From an uncultured Bacteroidia bacterium (GTDB lineage Bacteria; Bacteroidota; Bacteroidia; Bacteroidales; Prolixibacteraceae): a stretch of DNA of 64,000 nt. Shown piece after piece: positions 33,550-64,000 of this stretch (its first letter is position 1; each line of letters opens with the position of its first letter). The notes below the pieces were generated by a model. That model was not told where the DNA came from. It ran no database searches and was given only the letters and a program-made list of their open reading frames with translations. The position numbers and the translations under genes are program-made. Location: assembly GCA_903918045.1 (NCBI GenBank), contig CAIXCY010000088.1:1-64000 (forward strand), read 5' to 3'.

Positions 33550-33936
33550 ATGAGGCACAAGATTTTAATTATTGACGATGAAAAAAGCATCCGGCTTTTA
33601 CTTGAGAATTTTCTTTCAAAAAATTACGATATTGTCAGCAAAAGTGACGGAATTGAAGCTCTCGAATGGCTGGAAGGAAACCTTCCTGATCTGATCATTT
33701 GCGACTTGCAAATGCCCAATATGGATGGCTATCTATTTATCGAAAAGGTCAGACAGCGCGGATTCACAAAACATACACCCGTAATCATGTTATCGGGCGT
33801 AGAGAGTAGTAAGGAACGAATTAAATGCTACAGGCTTGGAGCTCAGGATTTTCTTGCTAAACCATTTAATCCTGAAGAATTAAGTGAACTAATTTTAAAA
33901 AATTTATTCCCTGTGCATTATGCCTTAAAATGGTAG
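33550..33936 (+). CDS. Stand-alone response regulator receiver protein
   Basis: A 128-residue CheY-like receiver with no output domain. The acidic pair D9-D10, phospho-acceptor D52 (CDLQMPNMDG) and conserved Lys in AKPF (about K111) are all present, so it should be phosphorylatable. As first gene of the exopolysaccharide locus it may control the following sugar transferase or receive phosphate from the hybrid kinase at 40120. That link is inference from location. Confidence 0.9.
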   Translation: MRHKILIIDDEKSIRLLLENFLSKNYDIVSKSDGIEALEWLEGNLPDLIICDLQMPNMDGYLFIEKVRQRGFTKHTPVIMLSGVESSKERIKCYRLGAQDFLAKPFNPEELSELILKNLFPVHYALKW

Positions 33937-33996
33937 CTATGGGTGTCACTAAGATTATGATTCACAGTACGATTTAAACCTCTTGCATTCATAAAA

Positions 33997-35199
33997 ATGG
34001 AAAACCTCCTAAAAATTCTTTATGTTGGCCGTTCATCGGATGATATAATCGAACTCCGGACTCATTCAGAAGTTTCGGTAGTCCATAAGTCTAACATGCT
34101 TGAAGCAGTAAATTATCTCAAATCGGAGAATAAGATTGATGCTGTTATTTCTGAGATTTATATCTCAGGAGGCGATGGAATTGAGATGAACAACTGGTTA
34201 CGGGAAAGACCGGAATTCGACCGGATTGCATTTATCCTGATCTCCTATGAGTTTAAGGCAGGCCTTTTCAAAACTGCATTTGACAGTCGGATAGACGACT
34301 ATTTTGTTCTTCCCTTCGCCTCAGCCGAAAGTATAGCAAGCCGGATAAAATTCATTGTCGAATTCAGAAATAAATATTCCCTGACAAGCTATATCGATAT
34401 AAATCAGGATATTAAATATGAAATGCCATTATCCAAACGGCTATTTGATTTATTAGTCGCTATATCTGCACTGATCGTTCTTTCACCTATTCTATTGCTT
34501 ATTGTTATTGCCATAAGGCTTGAATCAAAAGGAAAGGTCTATTATATCTCTAAAAGGGTGGGCCGTGAGCCTTTTGATTTTTACAAATTGAGGTCTATGA
34601 GAACAGGAGCCGATAAGGAATTGAATAAACTTGCAAAGGATAAAAATCAATATTCCATAGCCTCAGAACAAACTGAAATCGATTTTTCAAAACCATGCCC
34701 CGTTTGTACTAAATTAAACAACGGTAAAAGCTGCTCGCCGATTCTCCATATTGGTCCTTACAAAATATGTGACTATTGGTACCATACTCAAAAGAGAGAA
34801 GTTGCAAAATCAAAATCGGCATTTATTAAAATCTCTGACGATCCACGTATAACCAAAGTAGGAAAATTTATACGAAACACAAGCATTGATGAACTTCCTC
34901 AACTGATTAATGTCATTAAAGGGGATATGTCAATTGTTGGTAATCGGCCTCTTCCGGTTTACGAAGCCGAACTTTTAACACGGGGAGTTATTTCCAAGCG
35001 GTTTCTGGCTCCTGCCGGTATAACTGGGCTTTGGCAAGTTGAGCTCCGTGGCAAAGGAGGTGTAATGTCTGAAGATGAACGGATGAGGCTCGATAATGAA
35101 TATGCAGACCACTTTATCGGGGATAGCTACTCTTTCTGGTATGACCTGAAGCTGATACTTCGAACTGTTCCCGCTCTATTTCAGAAAGATACAGTTTAA
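33997..35199 (+). CDS. Degenerate receiver fused to an initiating sugar-phosphate transferase (Bac_transf)
   Basis: A 400-residue fusion. Residues about 5-125 have a receiver-like fold but lack the key residues: the acceptor Asp is E53 (DAVISEIYISG), the acidic pair is G11-R12, and the conserved Lys is Leu (VLPF). A transmembrane helix (about 150-172) follows, then a polyprenyl-phosphate sugar-1-phosphate transferase core with RLFDLLVA, YKLRSM, DDPRITKVGKFIRNTS, IDELPQL and the Bacteroidota-type GNRPLPVYEAE. It would begin repeat-unit assembly on undecaprenyl phosphate. An insert of about 90 residues carries C234, C237, C246 and C258 (C-x2-C-x8-C-x11-C), a possible metal site; I recall similar inserts in Bacteroidota homologues. 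Confidence 0.9.
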   Translation: MENLLKILYVGRSSDDIIELRTHSEVSVVHKSNMLEAVNYLKSENKIDAVISEIYISGGDGIEMNNWLRERPEFDRIAFILISYEFKAGLFKTAFDSRIDDYFVLPFASAESIASRIKFIVEFRNKYSLTSYIDINQDIKYEMPLSKRLFDLLVAISALIVLSPILLLIVIAIRLESKGKVYYISKRVGREPFDFYKLRSMRTGADKELNKLAKDKNQYSIASEQTEIDFSKPCPVCTKLNNGKSCSPILHIGPYKICDYWYHTQKREVAKSKSAFIKISDDPRITKVGKFIRNTSIDELPQLINVIKGDMSIVGNRPLPVYEAELLTRGVISKRFLAPAGITGLWQVELRGKGGVMSEDERMRLDNEYADHFIGDSYSFWYDLKLILRTVPALFQKDTV

Positions 35200-35301
35200 C
35201 TGTCTTTTTTTATATATTTGCATAAACAATACTCATTGGTTAACGTTCCTTCGGAAAGGTCGAACTAATATTTTTTTGAAATTTACTTACTCTTTTGATT
35301 T

Positions 35302-36057
35302 GTGAACCTACCTCATTCAATTCTTACTGTTATTATTACACTTCTGATCTTCCAATTCAAGGGAATTGCACAGGAGAGTAAAGATATGGATTTAATGAAA
35401 GACAATATTGAATCATTAATACCTCCTCTTGAAACAATTATCGATACGGCTATTGCAAGAAATCCATTTGTTAAATTAAGAAACCAGCAGATTGATATTA
35501 ACATACACAAATTAAAGGCGTTTAAGGTAGATTGGATGAGAAATTTAGGGGTTCAGACAGATGTTCTGTATGGAAATTTTAATAATATTTCATCCAACAG
35601 CTATCAGGGTCAAAATACGGCATTACTTGCTACCCGAAGTACACAACTTAACTATGGAGCCGGAGGCTTTATCCGGATCCCCTTGTATGATCTGTTCAAC
35701 CGAAGAAACCAGAATCGACAGGCTCAGGTCGATATTGACCAGGCCCAAAGTTATGTTTTGGAACAAAAAACGGAATTGCGCCAAATTATAATTAAACAAT
35801 ATAACGAACTGATCATAAAACATCGGATATTAAAAATCAAAGCAAAATATGTTGAAACGGCAAGAATTCATATGGAAATGGCTGAAAAGCAATTTATGAA
35901 TGGTGTAATCAATATCGCTGAATATTCCAGTGTTACAGAGATTGTAGCAAGAGGTGAAGCAGAATTTGAGACTTCTAAAATGGAATTCCGTACCTCTTTT
36001 ATGCTCCTGGAAGAAATTGTTGGAATGAAATTTAATCTGACCAATAAACTCAAATAA
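35302..36057 (+). CDS. Half-length TolC-family outer-membrane protein
   Basis: A 251-residue protein, about half the normal TolC/OEP length. The start is GTG at 35302, followed by a signal peptide (about 1-23, ending GIAQ). The rest contains long amphipathic helices with the repeated A-x-x-x-x-E-x-x-x pattern of the OEP fold and LRQIIIKQYNELIIK; only one of the two usual repeats is present. No frameshift or decay is visible: it ends cleanly 3 bp before the Wzz-like gene. It may be a trimmed outer-membrane export partner, possibly working as a larger oligomer (inference). Confidence 0.75.
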   Translation: MNLPHSILTVIITLLIFQFKGIAQESKDMDLMKDNIESLIPPLETIIDTAIARNPFVKLRNQQIDINIHKLKAFKVDWMRNLGVQTDVLYGNFNNISSNSYQGQNTALLATRSTQLNYGAGGFIRIPLYDLFNRRNQNRQAQVDIDQAQSYVLEQKTELRQIIIKQYNELIIKHRILKIKAKYVETARIHMEMAEKQFMNGVINIAEYSSVTEIVARGEAEFETSKMEFRTSFMLLEEIVGMKFNLTNKLK

Positions 36058-36060
36058 TTA

Positions 36061-38619
36061 ATGACAATAGTTGGTTTAATACGTTTATTGCGTAAGCATC
36101 TGGTTCTGTTACTATTCATGCCTATCCTTCTGGCAGGGTTGGTAATTACTTTAACCAAGAATCCCAGTTTTACCTTCTCCTCTGAAACGACTCTTTATAC
36201 TGGACTTGCTTCAGGATCGAGCGTTGAAATGGGCAAGGCTATTAGTTATTTTGCAACGACAACAGATTTTGACAATCTGATAAATGTTATCAATTCAAGA
36301 CAGACACAGCAGGAGGTCGCAATCAGACTTATCGCACAGCATTTGATGTTACCCAAAGCTGAACCAAGCTATATATCATCCAAATCTTTTGACTATTTAA
36401 GAAAAATTACCCCAGCCTATGTCCGTCAAATGGTTGTTACCTCCGGTAAACAAGCTTCTGTTCTAAATGCTGAAACGCCAAAGACCGATTTAGATAGCTT
36501 AGCCAAATCAATTCTGATTAAACAGGCCGCTCAGAAGGATACTACAGAAACCATTATTCAAAGTGATGCCGATTCTACTTTTTCGTTTTCAAAACTCTAT
36601 GCACCTGCCAAAAGCAGTAAAATGTTCCCCGCCTCAATCGATGAATCAGCCTATGAGCAAACAGTAAAAAATCTCACAGAATTATTTGCAAGCAACGATA
36701 CAAATTTTGTCTATCACCTTTTAAATTTTGATAATCCCCATTATTCGTTCGAAGCCATTTCCACAATTGTTGTCCAACGAATTGGATCAAGCGACCTTGT
36801 AAAACTAAAATATACAGCAGACGACCCTGGTATTTGTCAGCAGACGCTGATTCTGCTAACCAATGTATTAATTAAAAACTATAAAGTACTTAAAGAGAAC
36901 CGTTCCGACGCCGTAGTAAAATATTTTGAATATCAGGTTAATCAGGCAACCCAAAAACTGAAATTGGGGGAAGATAAACTGTTACTGTTCAATAAGGATA
37001 ATAAAATTATTAACTATTACGAGCAGAGTAAAGCAGTGGCTGGCGCCAAGGAGGCCCTTGATGTCGATTATAATAATATGAAAATTAAACTTGCCGGTTT
37101 TGAGGCAGAAATTAAGCGTCTGGAAGAAAAATTGGAGAATCAACAAAAAATATACTTAAAAAGTGTCCCAATTGTCGATAAAAGGAACCAACTTGCCCAG
37201 ATTAGTACAAAAATTGCGACTTCTGAAGCCATTGGGATTAAAGATATTGCCCAAATCCAAAATATTACATTATTAAAAGCCAAAGCAGATAAACTGAAAG
37301 AAGAGATTCGCGAATCTGTTGGAGACCTATACCATTTTGGAAATTCTACAGAAGGTATCCCTATAGCTACTCTTCTGAATGAGTGGATTTCTAATGTATT
37401 AAAATATGAAGATATGAAAGCCGGACAGACTGTTCTGGCTAAGCGAATTCAGGATTTTCAAAAGCAATATGATATTTTTGCCCCGGCAGGAGCCAATCTA
37501 AAGAGGATTGAGCGTGAGATTTCTGTTTCTGAGCATGAATTTCTTGAACTTTTACATGGCTTAAACCTGGCAAAACTCAAAATGCAGGATTTAGAACTTT
37601 CTTCAAATCTTAAAGCCATTGACCAACCGTTTTTCCCAATTACACCGAACCCTACCAAACGAAAATTTTTGATCATAGGCGCTGCTTTTTTCGGGTTTCT
37701 TATTGTATTTGCAACAATAATGGCTCTTGAATTTTTTGATGAAACCCTTCGGAATCCTAATAAAGCGGCAAAAAAACTCAATCTGGTACCTCTAGGTGTT
37801 TATCCCAAGGTCTACCTAAAAACTGAAATACTAAATTTTACAAATATTACCAAACGATTACTTGAAATGATGGTTCAAAAGATTGAGCTTTTAAAAAAAG
37901 AAAAAGCTTCGACACATGAACCCTATCAAATTCTTCTTTTCAGCACTTCAAATAATGAGGGTAAAACGATAATTGCTCAAAATTTAGCTTCGCTCCTTAA
38001 AAAGGTAGGAAATAAAGTAATAATTATAAGGTATTCTTCTGAAAATATTAAACAACAACGAACAAATCTTGATTATTATGCGGGAGTATCCATGACCTCT
38101 GAAATCCAGAAAAATCCTGTAAGGAGATTCTCATGGATTAACTGGATACTTGGGTATCCTGACGACAGAGTAAACTATCAAAGCCCATTTTTAAGTGAAA
38201 ATGGATCTACCCTTTTAAAGGAAGAATTTTTCGAGTATACTATAGATGAACATTTTTTGCATCTGAAAGACTATAAAGAATTACTAGCAAGAAATAACCA
38301 TACATTAACCTTCTCTCCAGACTATGTACTGATAGAAATTCCCTCCATTCTTTACTATCCATATCCAACAGGTTTGGTTTTATCAGCCGATTTACCCTTA
38401 ATGATCTGTCGCGCCAACAGAATCTGGGCTAATGCTGATCAGGGAACCTTTGATAACTTTTCAAAAGTGTTATCACGGACTCCGTTTTTTATTTTGAATG
38501 GTGTGGAAATAGATGTTGTTGAATCTATCCTTGGAGAATTACAAAAGAAAAGAAATTGGATCCGTAAAATTGTAAAAAAAATCATTCTTTTTGATTTTTC
38601 CTCGACAACTCAACCATAA
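36061..38619 (+). CDS. Wzz/Wzc-like polysaccharide co-polymerase with degraded kinase domain
   Basis: An 852-residue polysaccharide chain-length/export protein. It has an N-terminal Wzz segment with transmembrane helix at about 14-32, a large periplasmic coiled-coil region, a second helix at about 537-555 (LIIGAAFFGFLIVFATIM) and a cytoplasmic C-terminal domain. That domain resembles a bacterial tyrosine kinase but is altered: Walker A survives as SNNEGKT (K635, T636), the A-prime motif LIDxDxR is replaced by IIIRYSSEN, and no Tyr cluster is found at the C-terminus. It probably works in export and length control without autophosphorylation. It starts 3 bp after the TolC-like gene. Confidence 0.85.
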   Translation: MTIVGLIRLLRKHLVLLLFMPILLAGLVITLTKNPSFTFSSETTLYTGLASGSSVEMGKAISYFATTTDFDNLINVINSRQTQQEVAIRLIAQHLMLPKAEPSYISSKSFDYLRKITPAYVRQMVVTSGKQASVLNAETPKTDLDSLAKSILIKQAAQKDTTETIIQSDADSTFSFSKLYAPAKSSKMFPASIDESAYEQTVKNLTELFASNDTNFVYHLLNFDNPHYSFEAISTIVVQRIGSSDLVKLKYTADDPGICQQTLILLTNVLIKNYKVLKENRSDAVVKYFEYQVNQATQKLKLGEDKLLLFNKDNKIINYYEQSKAVAGAKEALDVDYNNMKIKLAGFEAEIKRLEEKLENQQKIYLKSVPIVDKRNQLAQISTKIATSEAIGIKDIAQIQNITLLKAKADKLKEEIRESVGDLYHFGNSTEGIPIATLLNEWISNVLKYEDMKAGQTVLAKRIQDFQKQYDIFAPAGANLKRIEREISVSEHEFLELLHGLNLAKLKMQDLELSSNLKAIDQPFFPITPNPTKRKFLIIGAAFFGFLIVFATIMALEFFDETLRNPNKAAKKLNLVPLGVYPKVYLKTEILNFTNITKRLLEMMVQKIELLKKEKASTHEPYQILLFSTSNNEGKTIIAQNLASLLKKVGNKVIIIRYSSENIKQQRTNLDYYAGVSMTSEIQKNPVRRFSWINWILGYPDDRVNYQSPFLSENGSTLLKEEFFEYTIDEHFLHLKDYKELLARNNHTLTFSPDYVLIEIPSILYYPYPTGLVLSADLPLMICRANRIWANADQGTFDNFSKVLSRTPFFILNGVEIDVVESILGELQKKRNWIRKIVKKIILFDFSSTTQP

Positions 38620-38636: not shown

Positions 38637-40007
38637 GTGAAGAAAACTCTGAATACCCTTTCAAAGGAAGCTAATTTTCTTTCTCTTGCCGGAAATATTA
38701 CTATTGCTTTTTTTGGCTTTGTAGGGTTTGCTCTAATTGCCAGGTCCTACTCTTTGGAGATTCTGGGTCAGTGGGTCTTATATATTTCAGCAAGTGCATT
38801 TGTTGAAATGTTTAGGTTCGGTATTACAAATACTGCAATCGTACGATTCCTATCCGGTGTAGATCACGATGAGCGAATAAAATTTATAGGTTCGAACGTA
38901 TTAATAGGGTTAGTTTCTACCTCAATTCTAGCATTTGGAATTTGGCTCTGCCATATCTATTTTCCAATTCCAATAAAAAACGCTGGTTACGAGCTTTTCT
39001 TCACCTGGTATCCTTTGAATGCCTTTATTAACCTCCCTTTTAATAATGCACTTGTCATACTGCAAGCTGATCAGAAATTTAAAAAAATGTTTTTTATCAA
39101 AGCATTTGAAAGTGGCATATTTTTTCTGGTAGTGATGGCGAATCATTATTACCTTCATCTCGCAATTGTAAATTTAGTTATTTATCAATTAATTATTAAT
39201 GGATTTTCATCCCTAATCTGCATGATTAAAGGTTGGGATGGGATTTTTTATATTAAAAATGCAACAAAACGAACCAACAAAATATTACTCGATTTCGGAA
39301 AATACACAACTTTTACACTCATTGGTTCAAATTTGTTAAGAAGCGCCGATACGCTGATTATAAGTCTTAGCCCATTGGGTACAGCAGCAGTTGCTCTATA
39401 TAGTATTCCATTAAAACTTACTGAGATACAACAAATTCCATTACGAAGTTTTATTGCAACTGCTTTTCCAAAAATGTCAAAAGCAAGTGTCAGGGGAAAA
39501 ATTGAGGAGGTAAAAGATCTCTTCTACACCTATAGTGGAGTCATGACTATCCTGTTTTTCTTTATTTCCATATTCACATTTACGTTTGCCGACTTCTTGG
39601 TTCTGCTCCTGGGTGGCAGTAAATTTCAGGGAATACATCCAATTATTGGAGCAGATCCTGTAACAATTATGAGAGTATTCTCAATTTATGGTTTACTATT
39701 GCCTCTTGACCGGATGACCGGCGTTTGTCTTGACAGTATTAACCGCCCTAACAAAAATCTGGGTAAGGTAAGTACTATGGTTGTGGCTAATGTCATTGGT
39801 GATATCATTGCAGTGTTTGTCTTTAAATCACTTGTATTGGTAGCTGTTGGATCCATATTGTTTACAATTCTGGGAGTTTGGATTGGATGGTATTTTCTTG
39901 ACAAGGAACTCCACCTAAATCCAAATAAATTAATTTCTGCCGGGATTGTCTTCTATAAGGAAATGTATCGAAAAATTAGATCCCGCAAAATGCTCTTCAG
40001 ATTGTAA
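38637..40007 (+). CDS. Wzx-type polysaccharide flippase, copy 1
   Basis: A 456-residue membrane protein with about 12 hydrophobic segments, of the MATE/MVF-like oligosaccharide flippase superfamily. It would move lipid-linked repeat units across the inner membrane. The start is GTG at 38637, 17 bp after the Wzz-like gene. It is strikingly similar throughout to the protein at 43735-45096 (for example NFLSL, GFAL, FVEMFR, NTAIVR, DERIKFIGSN and DRMTG shared in order), so the two are paralogues from a local duplication. Confidence 0.9.
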   Translation: MKKTLNTLSKEANFLSLAGNITIAFFGFVGFALIARSYSLEILGQWVLYISASAFVEMFRFGITNTAIVRFLSGVDHDERIKFIGSNVLIGLVSTSILAFGIWLCHIYFPIPIKNAGYELFFTWYPLNAFINLPFNNALVILQADQKFKKMFFIKAFESGIFFLVVMANHYYLHLAIVNLVIYQLIINGFSSLICMIKGWDGIFYIKNATKRTNKILLDFGKYTTFTLIGSNLLRSADTLIISLSPLGTAAVALYSIPLKLTEIQQIPLRSFIATAFPKMSKASVRGKIEEVKDLFYTYSGVMTILFFFISIFTFTFADFLVLLLGGSKFQGIHPIIGADPVTIMRVFSIYGLLLPLDRMTGVCLDSINRPNKNLGKVSTMVVANVIGDIIAVFVFKSLVLVAVGSILFTILGVWIGWYFLDKELHLNPNKLISAGIVFYKEMYRKIRSRKMLFRL

Positions 40008-40119: not shown

Positions 40120-43100
40120 ATGGTCATTAGAAATAAAATACTCCTGCTATTTTTCACGTCGGTAACTATGCTAGCCATTGTTTTAATGTTTTTTCGTGGC
40201 GTAGAGGAGAAACAGCAGACATTAATTACAAAATCCGCTACAGACCAACTCGATGTACTGATCAATACAATGGTCAATGTTCAATCTGAACAACTCGACG
40301 AACTAATGACTGATTATGCCAATTGGGATGAGGTAGTTTACCTTCAAAAGCCAAATCAGGAATGGGCAGTAAATAATTTAGGCAGTATTGTTAAATCGTT
40401 TAATCTATATAACGTAACCGTTTTTAATCAGGATTTTTATCCGGTTTATAGCTTTGGAAACCAAACATTAGGAATATTAAAGGACTCATTAACCCGGCCT
40501 GCAATCATCCATACAATATTAAATAAAGAGCATATTAATTTTTTTCAGGTAATTCCTGATGGCCTGGTTCAAATATCGGCCGCATCAATCCATCCAAGTT
40601 CAGATACCTTACACAGCACCCCTTCTGCTGGGTTAATCTTTATTTCCCGAATGTGGAACCTTAAATTCCTGGCTGAAATTTCAAAAAATACTGCAAGTAC
40701 AATATATTTTTCGAAGAGTGATAGCCGCAATAATAAAGGACTTGAACATGATTCATTAACCGTTTCGAAAGAATTGCGAAACTATGATAACCAAATAATC
40801 GGGTATTTAGTTATTAAAAGACCCTATTTTGTACTTAGCAACTTTCAACATATTAACAATTTAGCATTTAACACACTTGGAGTACTACTACTGTTATTAC
40901 TATTCACATTTTTCATTATCCTTTATCTTTGGATTCGCCGTCCCCTTAAAATAATTTCAGATAGCCTTGCCTCCAATAACACCACAAACCTTAAGATTCT
41001 CGAAAAATCTAAAAATGAATTTAGCCAGATTGCCAGGTTAATTACTATTTTCCATCGTCAGAAAGAGGAACTCGAAAACGAAAACATTGAAATTAATAAG
41101 ATTCAACTCCAATTAATTCAACAAAAAAGCGTTTTACAGGGGATGGCATTAGCCTCAAACCATCTTCTGACAAATGAAGATTTTGACACAGCAATCCAGG
41201 ATGCTTTGGAAGCGATAAGTAGCAAAGCAGATATTGACCGTATTTTTATCTACAAAAATACTACAGAACCAGCTACCCTGGAGATAAAAGCAATCCGCGT
41301 ACATGAATACATTGCACCCGAAATAAAGGGGAATATTGGATCGGATGAACTGAAGGAAATTTATTATTCTAATCACAATGACGGATGGTACTCGCTCTTA
41401 TTTCAGGGAAAAACGATCAAGGGACTTATAAGTGATTTCAGGGAAGATATTAGGCAAATATTTAAAAAACAATTCATTCATTCAATGATGATTGTACCTG
41501 TGATTGATCAGAAAAACCAACATTTTTGGGGCATAGTCGGTTTTGCCGATTGTACCCGCGATCATGTTTGGTCAACAGCAGAAGAGACCATATTAAAAAT
41601 GCTGGCTGACAACATCGGGGGAGCAATAAAACGTCAAATGTCGCAGGAAAAGTTAATTGAAACCATGGAAATGGCTAAAACTGCCGATCGTGCCAAATCG
41701 GAATTTCTCGCCTCGATGTCGCATGAGATCAGAACTCCAATGAATGGGGTGATTGGAATGACAAGTCTTTTGCTCCTCTCTGACCTTAGCCCATCACAAC
41801 GAGAATATGTCAATATCATTGAGAATTCGGGTGAGAGTCTGATGAATATTATCAATGAAATTCTCGATTTCTCAAAGATTGAATCAGGTCGTATGGAGCT
41901 GGAAGAGACTTCTTTCGATTTGAGACTTTGTATTGAAGATGTACTTGACCTTATGGCACCCAAAGCGCTGGAAAAGCACATCGATATAATATATTTTATT
42001 GATCCTATGGTTCACCAATATATATTCGGAGATGGTTTCAGGCTTCGGCAAATTATTGTCAATCTTGTCAGTAATGCGATAAAGTTTACTGACAAAGGTG
42101 ATATTCTGATTTATATATCTCAGATCTCAGAAAAGGATGGGAATATTGTCCTTGAATTTTCGGTGAAAGATACCGGAATTGGAATTCCTTCAAATAAAAT
42201 TGATTCACTTTTCTCTCCCTTTACACAGGTTGATGCTTCAACAACCCGAAAATACGGAGGAACCGGACTGGGATTGGCTATTACATGTAGTCTGGTAAAA
42301 CTGATGAATGGAAAAATCTGGGTAACAAGCCAGGAAGGAGAAGGGTCAGATTTTAGATTTACACTCCAATCCCGTAATTCCTCCCGCATTGAAGAGATTG
42401 ACCAGGTGTATAAGTCATTGCAAAATCTTCCTGGAAAATCGGTTCTAATCGTCGATGATAATGGAACAAATCGAAGAATTCTCTCATTACAGTGCGAATA
42501 TTGGGGCATTTTGGCGACCATTTGCGAATCCGGTGAAGAGGCGTTAGTAAAGCTCGAAAATAACAAATACGACGTAGGAATCATCGACATGCAAATGCCA
42601 GGAATGGATGGAATCATGTTGGCCAGAGAAATCCGGAAAAAGCTAACCAATGAACAATTGCCCCTTATTATGCTCACCTCTGTTGGGTTCAACACTGAAG
42701 CTGATGAATTGAGAAAATTGTTCTCATTTTATGTAAATAAACCAATCAAGCATTCTCAACTGGCTGAAATCCTGCTAAAAGTGATTCAACCTACAAAAGC
42801 TGTCACGACCTCCTTTACTCCCGGACGGGAGGAGTTGACTGAAATCGCGAAAAAATTCCCTTTCAGTATTTTAGTTGCTGAAGATAACCTGATTAATCAA
42901 AAACTGATTCGAAATATATTTGAATTATTAGGTTTTAAAACCGATATCGCGTCAAATGGACTTGAAGCGTTGGAAGCCCTGAAACGTAAAAACTATACCC
43001 TTATCTTCATGGATATTCAAATGCCTGAAATGAATGGATATGAAGCTACAGAGATTATTGTAGCACGAAGAAAAGAAGAACGGCCAATAATTATTGCCAT

Positions 43101-43236
43101 GACTGCCAATGCCATGCAGGGCGACAGGGAAAAATGCCTGGAGGCAGGCATGAATGATTACATTACTAAACCAATGAGAGTTAATGACCTGGTGAGGATA
43201 ATCAAATTCTGGGGTGAAAAGCAATTCGCCAGTTGA
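40120..43236 (+). CDS. CHASE4-GAF hybrid histidine kinase with two receiver domains
   Basis: A 1038-residue membrane sensor kinase. Order: transmembrane helix about 7-25, a periplasmic CHASE4-like domain (about 40-240, with DELMTDYANWDEVVYL), a second helix about 250-272, a GAF domain (about 345-510), HisKA with H535 in MSHEIRTP, HATPase_c (NLVSNAIKF, DTGIGIP, GGTGLGLAI), receiver 1 with D823 (IIDMQMPGMDG) and receiver 2 with D965 (FMDIQMPEMNG). No DNA-binding output and no HPt domain are attached. It sits between two flippase paralogues, so it probably senses an envelope or exopolysaccharide signal; the ligand is unknown. Confidence 0.93.
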   Translation: MVIRNKILLLFFTSVTMLAIVLMFFRGVEEKQQTLITKSATDQLDVLINTMVNVQSEQLDELMTDYANWDEVVYLQKPNQEWAVNNLGSIVKSFNLYNVTVFNQDFYPVYSFGNQTLGILKDSLTRPAIIHTILNKEHINFFQVIPDGLVQISAASIHPSSDTLHSTPSAGLIFISRMWNLKFLAEISKNTASTIYFSKSDSRNNKGLEHDSLTVSKELRNYDNQIIGYLVIKRPYFVLSNFQHINNLAFNTLGVLLLLLLFTFFIILYLWIRRPLKIISDSLASNNTTNLKILEKSKNEFSQIARLITIFHRQKEELENENIEINKIQLQLIQQKSVLQGMALASNHLLTNEDFDTAIQDALEAISSKADIDRIFIYKNTTEPATLEIKAIRVHEYIAPEIKGNIGSDELKEIYYSNHNDGWYSLLFQGKTIKGLISDFREDIRQIFKKQFIHSMMIVPVIDQKNQHFWGIVGFADCTRDHVWSTAEETILKMLADNIGGAIKRQMSQEKLIETMEMAKTADRAKSEFLASMSHEIRTPMNGVIGMTSLLLLSDLSPSQREYVNIIENSGESLMNIINEILDFSKIESGRMELEETSFDLRLCIEDVLDLMAPKALEKHIDIIYFIDPMVHQYIFGDGFRLRQIIVNLVSNAIKFTDKGDILIYISQISEKDGNIVLEFSVKDTGIGIPSNKIDSLFSPFTQVDASTTRKYGGTGLGLAITCSLVKLMNGKIWVTSQEGEGSDFRFTLQSRNSSRIEEIDQVYKSLQNLPGKSVLIVDDNGTNRRILSLQCEYWGILATICESGEEALVKLENNKYDVGIIDMQMPGMDGIMLAREIRKKLTNEQLPLIMLTSVGFNTEADELRKLFSFYVNKPIKHSQLAEILLKVIQPTKAVTTSFTPGREELTEIAKKFPFSILVAEDNLINQKLIRNIFELLGFKTDIASNGLEALEALKRKNYTLIFMDIQMPEMNGYEATEIIVARRKEERPIIIAMTANAMQGDREKCLEAGMNDYITKPMRVNDLVRIIKFWGEKQFAS

Positions 43237-43283: not shown

Positions 43284-43688
43284 ATGAAAATTATTGAAGA
43301 ATACCCGCTAAATATTCTAGTTGCTGAAGACAATGCAATTAATCAAAAACTAATCATGAGGATTTTTCAAATGCTTGGTTATACGATTCAGATTGCATCC
43401 AACGGATATAAAGTTATCGAAATCCTTGACCAAATGAAAATTGACATAATTTTCATGGACATTCAAATGCCGGAAATGGATGGAATAGAAGCTACCAGCA
43501 AAATTATTGCCCAGTGGGGGGATCAAAGACCAATGATAATTGCAATGACCGCCAATGCACTCCAAAGTGATAAAGAAACCTACAGGGCAGCAGGTATGGA
43601 TGATTATATTAGTAAACCACTAACTGTTGACCAGATTAGAATTGGAATTGAGAAATGGGCGCCAGTGCTAAACAAAGGCAAGAAATAA
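43284..43688 (+). CDS. Stand-alone receiver protein, paralogue of the preceding kinase's last receiver
   Basis: A 134-residue receiver. D59 is the phospho-acceptor (FMDIQMPEMDG), with the E15-D16 acidic pair and the Lys in SKPL. It aligns closely with the second receiver of the kinase just upstream (shared ILVAEDN-INQKLI, IASNG, MDIQMPEM, IIAMTANA-Q, AGM-DYI-KP). It begins 47 bp after the kinase stop, so it probably arose by duplication of that receiver and acts in the same phosphorelay. Confidence 0.9.
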   Translation: MKIIEEYPLNILVAEDNAINQKLIMRIFQMLGYTIQIASNGYKVIEILDQMKIDIIFMDIQMPEMDGIEATSKIIAQWGDQRPMIIAMTANALQSDKETYRAAGMDDYISKPLTVDQIRIGIEKWAPVLNKGKK

Positions 43689-57441: not shown

Positions 57442-58242
57442 GTGCCTCGGGTTCAAACCGCGGTTAATAGGTCACCAAAATTGGTAAAAATATTCGCAGA
57501 AACGCATTCAGATATTAAATTTCGGAATTTGGATTCATCGACTTTCCCTGATTTGGTTGAGCCGGCTGTCTGCCTTGTCCAAACCGATTCATATTCAGAT
57601 TCAGCGATTTTATCGTTTCAAAAATCACTATCAGCTCAGGAACAGGAAAAAGCACTGAGATTCAGATTTAAACAAGATCGGCAGAGTTATACCATAACAC
57701 ATGGAATACTTCGTACAATTTTGGGGAATTTTCTTGATTCAGGTCCGGGCAATATAGAATTTATTTCAAATGAATTTGGGAAACCATCACTGAAGCACGG
57801 GAATCGGGAAATACACTTCAATATTTCGCATCGATCAGGCATTTCAGCTCTTGCTTTTTCAACCAAGTCAGAAATTGGAGTAGATGTTGAAAAAATTGAG
57901 CCGGAATTTGATTTTGAGCTGATCGCCAAAACCCAATTCTCAAATGATGAAAACCGTTATATTCAATCCAACCAGATCGAGGCACGAAAAAAATTTTATA
58001 CCCTTTGGACCCGAAAAGAGGCATTCCTTAAAGCTGTTGGTATCGGAATAAGTGAAAATCTTGGAATTGAAGTTTTTAGAAAGGTCAATCAGAATGAAGT
58101 GGAACCATCCCTTTCCAGGATTCGGGATACAGCTTATTATTTGAAGTCCTTTGAATTTCAAAACAACTATATAATTTCATTGGCAACAAGCTTCCCCGGA
58201 GAATTTGGTTGTTCCCTGGTTAAAATCGACAATAAGGACTAG
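57442..58242 (+). CDS. 4'-phosphopantetheinyl transferase, Sfp type
   Basis: A 266-residue Sfp-family enzyme that adds the phosphopantetheine arm to carrier proteins. The three conserved regions are visible: IHFNISHRSG (about 115), IGVDVEKIEPE with the Mg-binding Asp-x-Glu (about 138-145), and FYTLWTRKEAFLKAVGIGI (about 185-205). The frame opens with GTG at 57442; a TTG at 57481 is another possible start and the true one is uncertain. Its location right after the NRPS gene predicts it activates S1042. A Sfp-type rather than AcpS-type enzyme agrees with secondary-metabolite service. Confidence 0.9.
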   Translation: MPRVQTAVNRSPKLVKIFAETHSDIKFRNLDSSTFPDLVEPAVCLVQTDSYSDSAILSFQKSLSAQEQEKALRFRFKQDRQSYTITHGILRTILGNFLDSGPGNIEFISNEFGKPSLKHGNREIHFNISHRSGISALAFSTKSEIGVDVEKIEPEFDFELIAKTQFSNDENRYIQSNQIEARKKFYTLWTRKEAFLKAVGIGISENLGIEVFRKVNQNEVEPSLSRIRDTAYYLKSFEFQNNYIISLATSFPGEFGCSLVKIDNKD

Positions 58243-58321: not shown

Positions 58322-59512
58322 ATGACAGCTCTGAAAATTATATTTTGGATGCTCTTTTTCATTGTATTCTATGCCTATATTGGCTATGGAATTATTCTTT
58401 ATACCTTAGTTTTGATTAAGCGGGTATTGAGAAAGTCAGGTAAAAAGGTTGCAGATCATAGCTATGAGCCTGAGGTAACTTTATTTATCGCAGCCTACAA
58501 CGAAAAAGATTTTGTAGCAGAGAAGGTGAAAAACTCCCTTGAACTTGATTATCCGTCTGATAAACTTCATATGGTTTGGGTTACAGATGGATCGGATGAT
58601 GGTACACCTGAAATTTTAAATAAAATTGAAGGTGTTGAGGTTCATCACCTTCCACAGCGAAGCGGTAAAATTGGGGCGATGAATCGGGGAATGAAACTCG
58701 TTAAAACACCCATAGTTGTCTTTTGTGATGCCAATACAATGTTGGGTATGGAATCAATTCGAAGAATTGTCAACCTTTTCAGTAATCCAAAAGTTGGCTG
58801 CGTATCGGGTGAAAAACGAATTTATGGAAAGGATAAAGATAGTGCTGCCGGAGCTGGTGAAGGGCTTTACTGGAAATATGAATCAGCCCTTAAAAAATGG
58901 GATGCAGAACTTTATTCAGTTGTGGGTGCTGCCGGTGAGTTATTTGCGATAAGAACTGAACTTTATCAGGAGGTAGAAAGGGATACTTTGCTGGATGACT
59001 TTATCATCTCACTAAGGGTCGCCCAGAAAGGGTATACCATTCAGTATGATCCTGAAGCTTATGCAATTGAAACTGCGTCGGCCGATGTTAAGGAAGAACT
59101 TAAACGGAAAGTGAGGATTTCAGCCGGAGGGATCCAGTCGGTAGTCAGACTTGCCTCGCTGCTTAATTTTTTCAAATACGGTACATTGTCATTTCAGTAT
59201 ATCTCACACCGGGTCCTGCGTTGGACACTCGCACCGCTTTCTTTACTGTTTTTAATCCCGGCCGGATTAACATTGGCCATCAATGAGGGGGTTCTTAACT
59301 TTGGTTTTTACAGTATCCTATTCTTGCTTCAACTGGCATTCTATATCCTCGCCTTAATTGGCTGGTATCTGGAGAACAAATCGATCAGGGTAAAACTGTT
59401 ATTCGTTCCCTATTATTTTTTCATTATGAATTTATCTGTTTTCCTCGGATTTAAAAGGTATTTAAAAGGTTCCCAATCCGTTAACTGGGAACGTGCAAAA
59501 CGGGGAAAATAG
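58322..59512 (+). CDS. Membrane glycosyltransferase family 2
   Basis: A 396-residue GT2 enzyme with one N-terminal transmembrane helix (about 6-29) and three at the C-terminus (about 295-380). Active-site elements are FIAAYNEKDFV, WVTDGSDDGTPE, VVFCDANT (DxD) and LLDDFIISLRVAQKG (catalytic Asp). The usual QxxRW is replaced by a KVRISAGG stretch, so it may add one sugar at a time instead of being processive (inference). It is 16 bp before the beta-helix protein. Confidence 0.86.
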   Translation: MTALKIIFWMLFFIVFYAYIGYGIILYTLVLIKRVLRKSGKKVADHSYEPEVTLFIAAYNEKDFVAEKVKNSLELDYPSDKLHMVWVTDGSDDGTPEILNKIEGVEVHHLPQRSGKIGAMNRGMKLVKTPIVVFCDANTMLGMESIRRIVNLFSNPKVGCVSGEKRIYGKDKDSAAGAGEGLYWKYESALKKWDAELYSVVGAAGELFAIRTELYQEVERDTLLDDFIISLRVAQKGYTIQYDPEAYAIETASADVKEELKRKVRISAGGIQSVVRLASLLNFFKYGTLSFQYISHRVLRWTLAPLSLLFLIPAGLTLAINEGVLNFGFYSILFLLQLAFYILALIGWYLENKSIRVKLLFVPYYFFIMNLSVFLGFKRYLKGSQSVNWERAKRGK

Positions 59513-59528
59513 GTTCAATCGGATTTAA

Positions 59529-61220
59529 ATGTACAGAGTTCTGGTAATTGTTATTTATTTGTTCCTGGTAATTCAGAATAAATCCGTGCTCGGTCAAAAG
59601 TCTAGTTACCGAATTAATACTGCCATAACTTTAATTGATGCCAATGACCCAATTTACCAATCAGTTAAACCTGGAGACACGCTTTTGTTTGTAGCGGGTA
59701 ACCGTGATCACCTGTTAATAAAAAACTTCGTTGGCAAACAGGGGAAGCCGATTGTAATGATGAATACGGAAGGTGTAATAATTATTGATACTCAAAACTA
59801 TTATGGGATTGCGGTTCAGAATTGCAGATACATAAAATTCACTGGTTCAGGTGACCCCACTCAAAAATACGGATTTCAGATAAAGCGGGTTGGCAATGGA
59901 GCGGGAATGGGTATCGGTGAATTGAGTTCTGATTTTGAAATTGATCATGTTTCAATCGAAAATACGTTAATTGGCGCTCTTTATGCAAAAACAGATCCCG
60001 ACTGTACCCTATTGTCGGTCAGGGGCAAGTTTACTCAATATAATACCAACATTCATGATAATTTTATATCAAATTCCGGAAATGAAGGGATATATGTAGG
60101 AAGTTCATTTTACGATGGTCAGGCAATTCAGTGCAATGCTCAAAATCTTCTCTTGTTGCCGGGTCTGCTTGATGGAGTAAAAATATATAATAACATTGTT
60201 ACAAACTCGGGGTGGGATGCAATACAGGTTAGTTGTGCGACAAAAAACTGTGAGATATATAACAATACAATCCAGTTTGACAGTCAGGCTGAGATTCCGA
60301 ATCAAATGTCAGGGATATTGATAGGGGGTGGTACAAGATGTGATTGTTACAATAATTTCATAAGTCAGGGTAAAGGGTGTGGTATTGAATGTCATGGGTT
60401 GGGAGGTTGCCGGATATTCAACAATATTATAGTCGATGCCGGATTAAATTTTGCACCAAATGATCTCACTCAAATGAAGCATGGGATATTTATAAGCGAT
60501 CTGACAAATCTTAGTGACTCAACCTTGGTTATTAAGTACAATGACATAATCAATCCAAAATCTGACGGGATCCGTTTTTCAAGCTTAAAGAGCACCAATA
60601 ATCTGGTAGCGTCCAATGTGATCATCAACCCCGGAAATTTTGATTATTACCAAAATGGAAATACAAGTTTCAAAGGGATTGATTCGTATATAATGGTTCC
60701 CAACAGCGCAACTGAGGTAGTTGTTCAAAATAATTACCTTGCCCGGAACAGTAATTTGGCAGGTTTTTCATCGCAGAATATGGATTCAGCCAATGATTAT
60801 ATTCCGGTTATCAGCTCACCACTTATTGATCAGGCAGAAACAGACAAAACAATCCATTTTGATTTTGAAGGTAACCCCCGTCCTTTCGGACCGAAACCCG
60901 ATATTGGTGCATTTGAAGTTGAGTATGATATCGCTGCATCAACACCATTGGAATCCAGGATCGACTATAATCAGTTTAAACTATTAAAAAATCCGGTTAC
61001 TGACCTATTGATTATCAGTATCCCCAGACCATCAAATTCGCCCATTTTTGTAAATATTTATAATCTGATCGGCGAAATGATCTTTCAGTCAAAACAACAC
61101 CAGTTACCCTCGGCAAGTCCGACAGTTCAGGTGGACCTTTCGGCAATTCCACAAGGAACTTATATTTATACTGTTCGTACAGATCAGGATGCCGGTTCAG
61201 GAAAATTTATAAAAAGGTGA
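59529..61220 (+). CDS. Secreted parallel beta-helix protein with type IX secretion sorting domain
   Basis: A 563-residue exported protein. A signal peptide (about 1-22, ending LGQKS) is followed by a right-handed parallel beta-helix (about 40-445) with repeated YNN, IYNNI and GI-type turns seen in pectate-lyase and polysaccharide-lyase folds, and a C-terminal T9SS type A sorting domain (about 475-563, with VNIYNLIGEMIF and LSAIPQGTYIYTVRT). It would cross the outer membrane by the type IX machinery and be attached or released. Inside the locus it may cut, trim or bind the polymer; catalytic residues are not identifiable by eye. Confidence 0.85.
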   Translation: MYRVLVIVIYLFLVIQNKSVLGQKSSYRINTAITLIDANDPIYQSVKPGDTLLFVAGNRDHLLIKNFVGKQGKPIVMMNTEGVIIIDTQNYYGIAVQNCRYIKFTGSGDPTQKYGFQIKRVGNGAGMGIGELSSDFEIDHVSIENTLIGALYAKTDPDCTLLSVRGKFTQYNTNIHDNFISNSGNEGIYVGSSFYDGQAIQCNAQNLLLLPGLLDGVKIYNNIVTNSGWDAIQVSCATKNCEIYNNTIQFDSQAEIPNQMSGILIGGGTRCDCYNNFISQGKGCGIECHGLGGCRIFNNIIVDAGLNFAPNDLTQMKHGIFISDLTNLSDSTLVIKYNDIINPKSDGIRFSSLKSTNNLVASNVIINPGNFDYYQNGNTSFKGIDSYIMVPNSATEVVVQNNYLARNSNLAGFSSQNMDSANDYIPVISSPLIDQAETDKTIHFDFEGNPRPFGPKPDIGAFEVEYDIAASTPLESRIDYNQFKLLKNPVTDLLIISIPRPSNSPIFVNIYNLIGEMIFQSKQHQLPSASPTVQVDLSAIPQGTYIYTVRTDQDAGSGKFIKR

Positions 61221-61335
61221 GAAAAAATGATCCTTTAAAAACAGGATAAATGCTTTCAGAATTCAACTTTCAGAATCAATTACTCTAGAACAATACTTAT
61301 ATTTGTTAATATTTAAAAACTAATTCCGTAATATT

Positions 61336-62661
61336 ATGAAAGTCGCAATCGTTGGTAGTGGATATGTGGGTCTGGTTACAGGAACCTGCTTTGCTGAAGT
61401 GGGAATTGAGGTAATGTGTGTTGACGTAGACACCAAAAAGATAGAGAATTTAAAAAACGGTATTATTCCTATTTATGAGCCGGGACTCGAAGATATGGTT
61501 CACCGAAACATGAAGAAAGGGAGATTAAAGTTTACTACCGATATCTCAGAGGCTCTTGAGGATTGCGAAGTCTTATTTACAGCGGTCGGCACCCCCCCGG
61601 ATAAAGATGGAAGTGCTGATCTTCAATATGTTCTAAGTGTTGCCCGGGATTGCGGCAAAAACATGAAAGATTATTTACTGATTGTGACTAAAAGTACCGT
61701 TCCGGTGGGTACTGCACAAAAAGTACGTGTTGCATTGCAGGAAGAACTTGATAAGAGGGGGGTCAACATTGCCTTTGATGTAGCCTCTAATCCAGAATTT
61801 CTGAAGGAAGGTGCAGCGATTGATGACTTTTTAAAACCGGACCGTATTGTTGTAGGGCTTGATTCATCACGGGCTGAGGATCTGATGAAGAGCCTTTATA
61901 AACCTTTTACTTTGAACGGTCATCCAATCATTTTCATGGATATTACTTCGGCAGAAATGACCAAATATGCAGCAAATGCGATGCTTGCAACCAAGATCAG
62001 CTTTATGAACGATGTCGCAAATCTGTGCGAGATTGTTGGTGCCGATATCAATATGGTTCGTAAAGGAATTGGCTCCGATTCCCGAATCGGAAATAAATTT
62101 ATCTATCCAGGGATCGGTTATGGTGGATCCTGTTTTCCGAAGGATGTGAAGGCCTTGATTCATACGGCAGAGGATTTCAACTATGAATTGCGCGTTCTTA
62201 AAGCGGTTGAAGCGGTAAATCAGGATCAGAAATCAGTTCTTTACAATAAAATTATGAAATACTTTAATGGGGACATTAAAGATAAAACAATTGCCATTTG
62301 GGGTTTATCCTTTAAACCTCAGACCGACGATATGCGGGAGGCACCATCTCTTGTAATCATAAAAAAATTATTAGAAGCAGGTGCAAAGGTAAAGGCTTAC
62401 GATCCTGTAGCCATGAAGGAGGCCAAACACACGCTTGGAGAGACAATAACCTATTCTGAAGACCAGTATGAAGCGCTTATCGATGCCGACTGCCTCCTTT
62501 TGGTCACGGAATGGCCGGAATTTAAGGTACCAAACTTCAATATTGTCAGGAAGCTTCTGAATCAACCTGTTATATTTGATGGTAGAAATATCTATGAAAT
62601 TGCAGAGATGAAGCAAAAAGGGTTCGACTATTTCTGTATCGGAATTGATACAACCAAATAA
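61336..62661 (+). CDS. ugd: UDP-glucose 6-dehydrogenase
   Basis: A 441-residue enzyme that oxidises UDP-glucose twice to UDP-glucuronate using NAD. The N-terminal Rossmann motif is [11 protein letters not shown], the catalytic Cys is C266 in YGGSCFPKD, and the segment [10 protein letters not shown] contributes the substrate-binding Glu-Lys pair. The UDP-binding C-terminal domain has [20 protein letters not shown]-GlcA feeds the next gene (uxs) or is used directly by a glycosyltransferase. Confidence 0.97.
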
Positions 62662-62680
62662 TTTTTATCAAAAATTTTGC

Positions 62681-62715
62681 ATTACCGGACTTCCGTTTCA
62701 AGGCAGTCCGGTAAT
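62681..62715 (+). promoter_or_regulatory. Perfect 11-bp inverted repeat between ugd and uxs
   Basis: ATTACCGGACT and AGTCCGGTAAT form an 11-bp stem with a 13-base loop. No U-tract follows, and the uxs start is 21 bp downstream, so it may be a weak terminator, an attenuating hairpin or a processing site that separates the two messages. Confidence 0.55.
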
Positions 62716-62736
62716 CATTAAATAAAAATCAAAACA

Positions 62737-63675
62737 ATGATCAAAAAAAAGGTATTAGTCACCGGAGGAGCCGGTTTTGTCGGATCACATCTTTGTGACC
62801 GGCTGTTGAAAGAGGGGAATGAAGTAGTTTGCCTTGATAACTATTTTACTGGCCAAAAGCAGAACATTGTTCATTTGCTTGATAACCCATACTTTGAATT
62901 GATCAGGCATGATGTTACGATGCCCTTTTTTATCGAAGTTGACGAAATCTTCAACCTGGCGTGCCCAGCTTCTCCAGTCCATTACCAATATAATGCCATC
63001 AAGACGATGAAGACCTCCGTAATGGGGGCGATCAATATGTTGGGGCTTGCCAAACGTATTAAAGCCAAAATTCTTCAGGCCTCGACAAGTGAAGTATATG
63101 GTGATCCTCAGGTCCATCCGCAGGTTGAAAGTTACTGGGGACATGTGAATCCAATCGGAGAAAGGTCGTGCTATGACGAAGGAAAGCGTTCAGCTGAGAC
63201 ACTTTTTGTCAACTACAACAAACAAAATAATGTTAAGATTAAAATAATCAGGATTTTTAACACTTATGGCCCCCGAATGCATCCGCATGACGGAAGGGTT
63301 GTATCCAATTTTATTGTTCAGGCTTTACAGGGTGAAGATATTACGATCTATGGCGACGGACAGCAAACACGCAGTTTTCAATATGTAGATGATCTTGTAG
63401 AAGGTATGATCCGGATGATGGCATCACGGGACGAATTCACCGGCCCTGTTAATATCGGCAACCCCAACGAATTCACAATCCTACAACTGGCAGAACTGGT
63501 GATTAAACTAACAAACTCAAAATCAAAGATCGTCAGAATGCCACTTCCTTCAGATGATCCTACCCAACGGCAACCCAATATTACTCTTGCAAAAACAGAG
63601 TTGGACTGGGAGCCCAAAATACAGCTTAATGAAGGACTTATAAAAACAATTGATTATTTTGCTTCAATCATCTGA
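62737..63675 (+). CDS. uxs: UDP-glucuronate decarboxylase (UDP-xylose synthase)
   Basis: A 312-residue short-chain dehydrogenase/reductase epimerase-type enzyme that converts UDP-glucuronate to UDP-xylose. The NAD motif [10 protein letters not shown] is at about 10-19 and the catalytic Tyr-x3-Lys is Y146 and K150 in CYDEGKR, the EGKR context being typical of UXS proteins. The RPNP-like [15 protein letters not shown] segment also fits. Together with ugd it gives the donor for xylose or 4-keto-pentose units of the polysaccharide. Confidence 0.95.
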
Positions 63676-63713
63676 AAATCAATTGCAATACCTTTAATTT
63701 TAAAAATTTAAAA

Positions 63714-64000
63714 ATGAGGATACTTATAACCGGATCAAATGGCCAGTTAGGAAATGAAATTAGGGTATTGGCAGAAGATTATCCTGACTTCGAGTTTATT
63801 TATACTGACATCGATGAGCTGGATATTTCAAATCCACTTAAGGTTGATGCATTTTTTACGGCCAATAAACCCCTGGCTGTTATCAACTGTGCGGCTTATA
63901 CAGCTGTAGATAAAGCGGAAACGGATAAAAATCTGGCATATCTCATTAACTGTGAAGCCGTTATGAACCTTTCTAAATCTGCAGCTAAAATTGGTGCGCT
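63714..64000 (+). CDS. rfbD: dTDP-4-dehydrorhamnose reductase, partial
   Basis: The first 95 codons, ending at the right edge. The N-terminal Rossmann motif ILITGSNGQLGNEI at about 3-16 and INCAAYTAVDKAE at about 68-80 are characteristic of RfbD/RmlD, which reduces the keto-rhamnose intermediate to dTDP-L-rhamnose. The remainder (about 190 residues) with the YxxxK motif lies outside the window. It adds a rhamnose donor to the sugar supply of the locus. Confidence 0.93.
   Translation, partial: MRILITGSNGQLGNEIRVLAEDYPDFEFIYTDIDELDISNPLKVDAFFTANKPLAVINCAAYTAVDKAETDKNLAYLINCEAVMNLSKSAAKIGA

Follow-up and report, generated by a model that had tools for sequence, protein, structure and literature searches.

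A fused nonribosomal peptide synthetase in a Wzx/Wzy-type exopolysaccharide locus of Prolixibacteraceae, a candidate route to glycyl groups on the repeat unit

The locus and its synthetase

The window, that is, the whole stretch of DNA analyzed here, comprises the first 64 kb of the 92,339-base contig C88 (CAIXCY010000088.1) from the draft genome of an uncultured Prolixibacteraceae bacterium (GCA_903918045.1, here G000), and the subject of this work is a nonribosomal peptide synthetase (NRPS) encoded within an exopolysaccharide (EPS) locus. Between positions 33550 and 63675, every main gene lies on the plus strand and most are EPS genes, with the NRPS and a 4'-phosphopantetheinyl transferase (PPTase) inside. 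The gene set of a Wzx/Wzy EPS locus is present, namely an initiating transferase, a flippase, a polymerase, and five glycosyltransferases, with a weak call for the chain-length protein. The features, identified from open reading frames (ORFs) and Pfam or NCBIfam models, are:

33550..33936, +, response regulator receiver protein (ORF; also at the locus head in the relatives G001 and G002, at 95-96% identity)
33997..35199, +, initiating polyprenyl-phosphate sugar transferase (PF02397, E 1.4e-52; TIGR03025, E 2e-60, below cut-off)
35302..36057, +, TolC-like outer-membrane protein (OEP), putative exporter (PF02321, E 2e-14)
36061..38619, +, Wzz/Wzc-like chain-length protein, weak call (TIGR03007, E 5e-9, below cut-off; no Pfam match; position conserved in G001 and G002)
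38637..40007, +, second Wzx-like flippase (60% identical to the flippase at 43735-45096; no Pfam or NCBIfam match of its own)
40120..43236, +, hybrid histidine kinase, CHASE4-GAF-HisKA-HATPase-REC (Pfam)
43284..43688, +, response regulator receiver protein (PF00072)
43735..45096, +, Wzx flippase (PF01943, E 5e-12)
45142..46632, +, Wzy polymerase (or ligase) family protein (PF04932, E 6e-13)
46700..47614, +, GT2 glycosyltransferase (PF00535)
47696..48892, +, GT2 glycosyltransferase (PF13641)
48904..49971, +, AT3 acyltransferase (PF01757, E 5e-25)
50008..51156, +, GT4 glycosyltransferase (PF00534)
51220..52419, +, GT4-like glycosyltransferase (PF13692)
52471..53247, +, FkbM methyltransferase (PF05050, E 9e-9; TIGR01444 above cut-off)
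53268..57365, +, NRPS with a degenerate condensation (C) domain (residues 39-484), an adenylation (A) domain of predicted glycine specificity (505-985), a thiolation (T) domain (1015-1078), and a thioesterase (TE) from about residue 1100
57442..58242, +, Sfp-type PPTase (PF01648, E 1e-16; the genome has three ACPS matches, this one included)
58322..59512, +, GT2 glycosyltransferase (PF13641, PF00535)
59529..61220, +, right-handed beta-helix protein with a type IX secretion system (T9SS) sorting tail (PF13229, PF18962, TIGR04183)
61336..62661, +, UDP-glucose 6-dehydrogenase type protein (PF03721, E 4e-67; TIGR03026 above cut-off)
62737..63675, +, UDP-glucuronate decarboxylase (UDP-xylose synthase, Uxs; matches the solved UDP-glucuronate decarboxylase, PDB 4gll, E 1.5e-124)

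An earlier note on this DNA had described the stretch as an EPS array with an embedded NRPS, and the genes it named were found where it placed them or nearby, on the plus strand. Pfam supports the five glycosyltransferases, AT3, FkbM, the C-A-T-TE NRPS, the PPTase, and the UDP-sugar dehydrogenase, and the match to 4gll bears out its uxs call. Its Wzz-like gene has the weak NCBIfam match and no Pfam match, and the locus has two flippase-like genes, the first of which lacks a Pfam match. The array does not consist of EPS genes only, given the hybrid histidine kinase and response regulators, and the T9SS-tailed beta-helix protein was absent from the note's gene list.

The C, A, T, and TE domains of the NRPS lie in one chain, each above the Pfam cut-off. 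The adenylation pocket reads DILQLGMVW (with Lys517 assumed from the conserved A10 motif), and the two nearest solved structures for the pocket segment are AB3403 (4zxh, DILQLGVVW) and DhbF (5u89, DILQLGLIW), their codes being read off the alignment by eye. Both are tabulated as glycine enzymes in excerpts of PMC11253843, and the AB3403 crystal structure contains glycine according to an excerpt of PMC9470617. Judged from its pocket, the A domain most likely activates glycine, in line with the glycine-like pocket noted earlier. The carrier Ser and the TE Ser-Asp-His are present, as had also been claimed, with the triad invariant across 51 TE rows, and the A motifs and the PPTase reading frame are intact. 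The catalytic motif of the C domain is degenerate (IHNSISDEWS): HHxxxDG has become HNSISDE, with loss of the catalytic His.

The NRPS is the sole condensation-domain match in its own genome. The genome has three other carrier-domain matches: an 80-residue frame; an 842-residue A-T-TE-like protein close to a sugar-transferase-like fragment (contig C150; L184:6122-8650); and a 1485-residue A-T-hexapeptide protein with its own PPTase adjoining (contig C102; L185:8011-12468).

Elsewhere in the locus, the two Wzx-like flippases (38637-40007 and 43735-45096) flank the hybrid histidine kinase and its neighboring response regulator; the G001 stretch, as fetched (L040), holds the second Wzx-like flippase only. 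The beta-helix protein (59529-61220) is a constant member of close EPS loci and may act on the polymer or be anchored by it. A 64% identical match to it occurs in the same genome within a 1192-residue frame (G000:C33:33826-35211). An Rfam scan of the window gave no match at gathering scores.

The locus and its synthetase in related genomes

We compared the locus across 149 genomes, its own and 148 relatives, which are drafts and include many metagenome-assembled genomes (MAGs). Genes of relatives are longest-ORF calls named by BLAST against the window proteins, with Pfam checks of one Mucilaginibacter glycosyltransferase block and some other proteins. Condensation-domain loci occur in 27 of the 149 genomes (own included), and 10 genomes besides that of the window carry an NRPS at this locus, a recurrence that exceeds chance. 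Searches independent of the NRPS, which took Wzy, the last GT2, and the beta-helix protein as queries, yielded further copies of the locus. In total, 11 of 15 close copies carry the NRPS, and the remaining four (G009, G010, G012, G015) have neither NRPS nor PPTase in the stretch fetched.

A single TE family ends every NRPS in the 11 copies, which comprise the window, six two-module synthetases, one A-T-TE protein of other specificity (G013), and three longer A-T-TE proteins. In G001, G002, G013, G024, G074, G081, and G087, the EPS genes follow the order of the window, most proteins being ~50-95% identical, and the NRPS stands after the GT4/hexapeptide/FkbM genes and before the last GT2 (G002 has a contig break here). 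In G008, G011, and G034, an A-T-TE protein of ~1430 residues follows the beta-helix gene (the downstream part of G008 being seen in the named contig L174), so the NRPS occupies two alternative places within the locus. Pfam finds a partial formyltransferase domain ahead of A-T-TE in the G011 protein (L080:15268-19569). G074 also has an A-T-TE protein of similar length in the same place after the beta-helix gene (L045:2569-6882). Formyl-aminoacyl decoration is possible at loci of the L080/L045 type.

The PPTase follows the NRPS closely in its distribution. All 10 scorable NRPS copies have it in the locus (window, G001, G008, G011, G013, G024, G034, G074, G081, and G087; G002, split over contigs, is left out), and none of the four close NRPS-free copies does. 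Nine more distant loci (G070, G076, G088, G102, G109, G129, G139, G140, G147), a count that does not take in G142, have neither NRPS nor PPTase in stretches that are partly incomplete. Thirteen condensation-domain loci of relatives, all lacking the TE family (L031, L032, L034, L035, L037, L043, L047, L052, and L056-L060), served as a control, and at E 1e-4 none of them contained a match to Wzx, Wzy, Wzz, or the initiating transferase; the ~6-kb fragments L036, L053, and L054 were left out, as was L055, which has the TE. In G087, a 1074-residue protein on the opposite strand directly behind the PPTase (L050:14430-17654) is in part 56% identical to the locus beta-helix protein.

The earlier note had named an independent mobile insertion of the NRPS/PPTase pair as a result that would count against a role in EPS. 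Here the relatives give a mixed answer, with the NRPS present in some close copies and absent from others, and in two places within the locus. A mobile insertion was rejected: across the 149 genomes, strong TE matches lie in the EPS locus, except for two in G109 and a further one in G087, where an isolated 6-kb contig hides its surroundings. A plasmid search gave generic NRPS relatives below 60% identity, the matches listed being cyanobacterial.

Comparison with the two-module relatives points to loss of a module in the window. The partial C-A-T-C-A-T-TE order is found in G001, G002, G024, G074, G081, and G087 (cut at a contig end in G002), with a first pocket of DILQIGSIY (DILQLGGIY in G001) and a second of DILQLGMVW (DILQLGMIW in G081). 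The window retains the second-module pocket only, and G013 the first. The absence of a second module noted earlier thus holds for the window and G013 but not for these six relatives. The G013 protein is closer to module 1 up to about residue 690 and to module 2 beyond it, as if the A1 core had been fused to the end of A2, T2, and the TE. For residues 1-39 of the window NRPS, the T1-C2 linker of G001 gives a score of 51, which none of 2000 shuffles equalled; the match is weaker and suggestive for G002 (51 of 2000) and G081 (119 of 2000), and none was seen for G024, G074, or G087. The TEs of the window and G013 are sisters (support 100/99, with G002 outside the tree); therefore, two complementary single-module forms exist in one lineage. 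On this sequence evidence, the window protein is a shortened two-module synthetase that has lost module 1, and since six relatives have two modules, the ancestral group made by the NRPS was probably dipeptidyl.

The C domain of the window has also changed more than its neighbors in the chain. All six two-module relatives keep HHxxxDGWS. Counting private changes at sites where the five other relatives agree, the C domain shows 25 in the window, compared with 8 in G002 (227 sites, p 0.0046) and 5 in G001 (225 sites, p 0.0003), i.e., three to five times as many as the relatives. There is no such excess in the A domain (6 in the window against 7 in G002 over 330 sites, and 6 against 4 in G001 over 324 sites), the T domain (0 against 0, 36 sites), or the TE (1 against 2 over 73 sites of its N-terminal part, G002 being cut). 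The excess of C over A changes has p 5e-6 on the window branch and is not significant on the G002 or G001 branch. The amino-acid relative-rate counts carry this argument because dS is saturated or undefined in several pairs. An excess of C changes in one lineage reads as relaxed constraint.

The thioesterase family and its closest known counterparts

The TE is the element shared by all these architectures, and its distribution was followed with a profile. Strong matches (E at most 1e-65) occur in 12 of the 149 genomes; seven of these had supplied the sequences of the alignment and are bound to match, whereas G002, G008, G011, G034, and G109 did not contribute. All 12 fall among the 21 genomes with the beta-helix marker, with none among the other 128 (Fisher 1.9e-12, a value that ignores relatedness). 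For 11 of them, the TE lies inside the locus (G087 having its second TE on the isolated contig); G027, G070, and G091 match weakly (E 1e-22 to 1e-27) and were not counted.

A scan of genome contigs with the TE alignment, of which we analyzed the best 80 of 126 relatives, extended the family beyond this sample. Fifty of the 80 named loci are titled Mucilaginibacter, and the rest belong to Spirosoma, Fibrella, Fibrivirga, Hymenobacter, Daejeonella, Parapedobacter, and MAGs; the nearest named relatives of the window TE are from Bacteroidia MAGs labelled Tangfeifania and Mariniphaga, both placed in Prolixibacteraceae. Because ten of the 80, going by the length of the contig and the position on it, are contigs of relatives already counted (L097-L103, L137, L174, L176), the 80-locus and 149-genome counts are not independent. 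At least two of Wzx, Wzy, Wzz, and the initiating transferase lie within ~10 kb in 49 of the 80 loci, and 66 have at least one of these or two glycosyltransferases; some others are cut by contig ends. Pfam confirms the EPS genes in the Mucilaginibacter block L114. In another Mucilaginibacter locus (L163:249-10861), Pfam finds an A-T-KS-AT-T-aminotransferase protein, C-A-T-TE, and a PPTase shortly before the initiating transferase, which suggests an assembly line that joins a beta-aminoacyl group to the polymer.

Many of these proteins have no C domain at all. Using a profile from seven C domains on the 82 TE-bearing proteins, less four cut by contig ends, 46 of 78 had no C-domain match (43 of 874-895 residues and three of ~1430), and 44 of these 46 adjoin EPS genes. 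The TE-proximal pocket starts with DILQ in 60 of the 78.

The TE was also compared by structure and by profile. When an AlphaFold2 model of it (pLDDT 85) is searched with Foldseek, the first five matches are Pks13 TE chains and the sixth is AB3403, with cyclizing or hydrolyzing TEs close behind. By profile, the nearest is a bifunctional NRPS TE (7crn), followed by AB3403 and then by polyketide, fatty-acid synthase, and Pks13 TEs. The Mycobacterium tuberculosis Pks13 TE, like that of the window a type I TE and the nearest in fold by a narrow margin, releases its acyl chain onto polyols, with trehalose preferred (excerpts of PMC9210659). It differs in its polyketide fatty acyl chain, its actinobacterial origin, and an identity of only ~22%. 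A TE of the Pks13 kind can acylate sugars, as that of the window may do. In overall plan, the NRPS most resembles Acinetobacter baumannii AB3403 (4zxh/4zxi), which shares the C-A-T-TE order, eight of nine pocket residues, and a TE near by both profile and fold. In AB3403, the C domain is active, and the gene is not known to lie in an EPS locus. Linear gramicidin synthetase LgrA is the top PDB entry by whole-sequence score, with two stretches summed, and its best match ends at residue 1078, before the TE. LgrA has the order F-A-T-C-A-T, which resembles the formyltransferase and two-module relatives, is not known to have a TE, and makes a free peptide.

Systems that decorate surface polymers with amino acids are organized differently. 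Those of the AlmEFG and Dlt type consist of a stand-alone ligase, a stand-alone carrier, and a dedicated transferase: AlmF and AlmG are separate proteins, with a dedicated acyltransferase, that complete the AlmE glycine decoration of lipid A, and in Dlt the transfer by DltB/DltD takes place outside the cytoplasm, with no C or TE domain known. The window enzyme is not of this type in layout, its C-A-T-TE being a single fused chain encoded in a Wzx/Wzy EPS locus, whereas AlmE/AlmF/AlmG target lipopolysaccharide and Dlt uses D-Ala. The likeness would lie in the predicted chemistry. Aminoacyl decoration of envelope polymers is already known: AlmE of Vibrio cholerae is an adenylation enzyme that activates glycine for an envelope glycolipid, and DltA serves the carrier-mediated D-alanylation of teichoic acids (both in excerpts of PMC11253843). 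Glycyl or seryl sugars are likewise known in Bacteroidota from the Wbp/Vim linking sugar of T9SS cargo, which depends on the transferase VimA instead of an NRPS and anchors proteins (excerpts of PMC7468200). Pfam and NCBIfam identified no Wbp/Vim-type genes among the genes of the locus, a scan of the locus only, in which no VimA model was run. In the open-licence literature, we found no description of an NRPS decorating an EPS or antigen, or of a fused NRPS-TE in a Wzx/Wzy locus; the NRPS genes in excerpts of PMC10059132 are plasmid siderophore genes.

Proposed glycyl transfer to the repeat unit and its alternatives

The reading we favor, at slightly better than even, is that the repeat unit of a Wzx/Wzy-type EPS is decorated with glycine by the shortened NRPS through its TE. 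The locus would make the polymer, and the decoration would take place in the cytoplasm. The adjacent PPTase would arm the T domain, the A domain would activate glycine and load it, and the C domain would no longer act, its donor module being gone, its catalytic His lost, and its private changes in excess. The active remainder is predicted to be A(Gly)-T-TE: with the His and donor module of C lost, the remaining chemistry is glycine activation, loading, and TE transfer. The TE would take glycine onto its Ser and pass it to a sugar hydroxyl (or amine) of a lipid-linked repeat unit or nucleotide sugar before flipping. Because hydrolysis of a glycyl-thioester would be futile, burning ATP for nothing, the TE most likely hands glycine to a repeat-unit sugar, and this transfer is favored because A, T, and TE are conserved and the setting is one of repeat-unit assembly. 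The frequent C-less TE proteins beside EPS genes and the shared locus and NRPS position in relatives also speak for it, as do the restriction of strong TE matches to genomes with the beta-helix marker and the joint presence of PPTase and NRPS. The bond would most likely be an ester, since the Pfam scans identified no amino-sugar genes in the locus, and glucuronate and xylose are candidate acceptor sugars because the genes for their UDP-sugars are in the locus. The earlier proposal of an aminoacyl thioester passed to a sugar thus keeps its core, with the NRPS/PPTase pair belonging to the EPS locus and TE transfer the most plausible route, but transfer by the C domain is not supported.

Several observations weigh against this reading, which is a prediction from sequence whose acceptor, bond, and product are all putative. 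The glycine assignment comes solely from the pocket code, and the Foldseek matches have a TM of ~0.6 and an rmsd of ~9 Å, with cyclizing or hydrolyzing TEs scoring almost as well. The two TEs of G109 lie outside a visible EPS locus, one of them in a 4598-residue NRPS beside peptidase, symporter, GT2 (one), and amidohydrolase genes; a Victivallis-labelled MAG has the TE beside lysine-aminomutase-like and ATP-grasp genes, with no visible EPS genes; and several Spirosoma, Hymenobacter, Daejeonella, and Mucilaginibacter TE loci are away from visible EPS genes (with a PhzF-like gene in Hymenobacter). In a TE tree that takes in the window, G109, and 50 of the 80 named loci, the EPS label is explained by 9 changes, whereas shuffled labels require 11.8 on average and come out this low in 8 of 500 shuffles, so that the label is only weakly clustered. 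These 9 changes led us to reject a single EPS-only TE clade and make the EPS claim one of association, not exclusivity. For the C domain, the direct between-branch contrast of C versus A gives only p 0.044, and dN/dS for window-G001 (0.12) is close to that for G001-G002 (0.11), with dS near saturation, so the constraint on C is lowered, not absent.

An alternative that we regard as unlikely is that the NRPS makes a small diffusible product, an N-acyl-glycine or short peptide, merely co-regulated with EPS. The C-A-T-TE module of AB3403 probably makes such a product with a fatty acyl donor. The architecture and pocket are close to those of AB3403, the two-module relatives could make a free dipeptide, and peptide-like loci away from EPS genes also contain TEs of this family. 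Yet, the locus genes scanned include neither an acyl-donor carrier nor an ABC or MFS transporter, the C domain of the window combines a missing catalytic His with excess change, and the common C-less proteins stand nearly all beside EPS genes.

We give still less weight to the view that the NRPS is a decaying remnant without present function. Loss of module 1 and of the C motif, the excess change in C, and the absence of the NRPS from four of the 15 close copies would all fit decay, but dN/dS of A and TE is 0.03-0.06 against G002 and G001, the T-domain Ser, A motifs, TE triad, and PPTase frame are intact, and G013, with its sister TE, keeps a single-module protein of other specificity.

It is improbable that a glycyl sugar anchors the T9SS-secreted beta-helix protein, in the way that the N-glycyl/N-seryl linking sugar of T. 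forsythia and P. gingivalis anchors T9SS cargo. The tailed protein is conserved in the locus, and glycyl/seryl linking sugars exist in Bacteroidota, but the known route uses VimA and no NRPS (both points from excerpts of PMC7468200), the locus scans gave no Wbp/Vim-type genes (no VimA model being run), and NRPS-free copies keep the beta-helix gene. Least probable is the earlier suggestion that an altered C domain, not the TE, condenses glycine with a sugar amine: the domain retains an open frame with a changed motif and a dN/dS well below 1, but the motif is intact in the six two-module relatives, the extra changes belong to one lineage, are scattered across the domain, and read as relaxed constraint, which led us to reject an adapted C domain, the TE is the element shared across architectures, C-less ones included, and no amino-sugar genes were identified in the locus.

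Glycyl transfer by the TE, the reading favored for the window, may be one case of something wider. As the same TE family stands behind two-module, A-T-TE, formyltransferase-A-T-TE, and polyketide synthase (PKS)-NRPS lines, the attached group seems to vary against a constant TE and acceptor side. We propose, tentatively and at rather less than even confidence, that a system of this kind is widespread in Bacteroidota: a conserved type I TE would serve as a polysaccharide acyltransferase in Wzx/Wzy loci, fed by interchangeable NRPS, formyl-NRPS, and PKS-NRPS lines; the backbone would receive a glycine, dipeptide, formyl-aminoacyl, or beta-aminoacyl-glycine group, and modules would be gained and lost by simple deletion and fusion. 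The natural deletions and fusions in the window and G013 keep one TE and change the cargo, as NRPS engineers attempt by hand. If true, the system would join assembly-line peptide synthesis with polysaccharide assembly, fields that are normally separate, account for the single-module NRPSs in EPS clusters that genome mining would list as orphan peptide clusters, and provide a genetic handle on aminoacylated or peptidylated extracellular polysaccharides. For the bacteria themselves, the positive charge of glycine or peptide groups would then alter matrix gelling, metal binding, and resistance to antimicrobial peptides.

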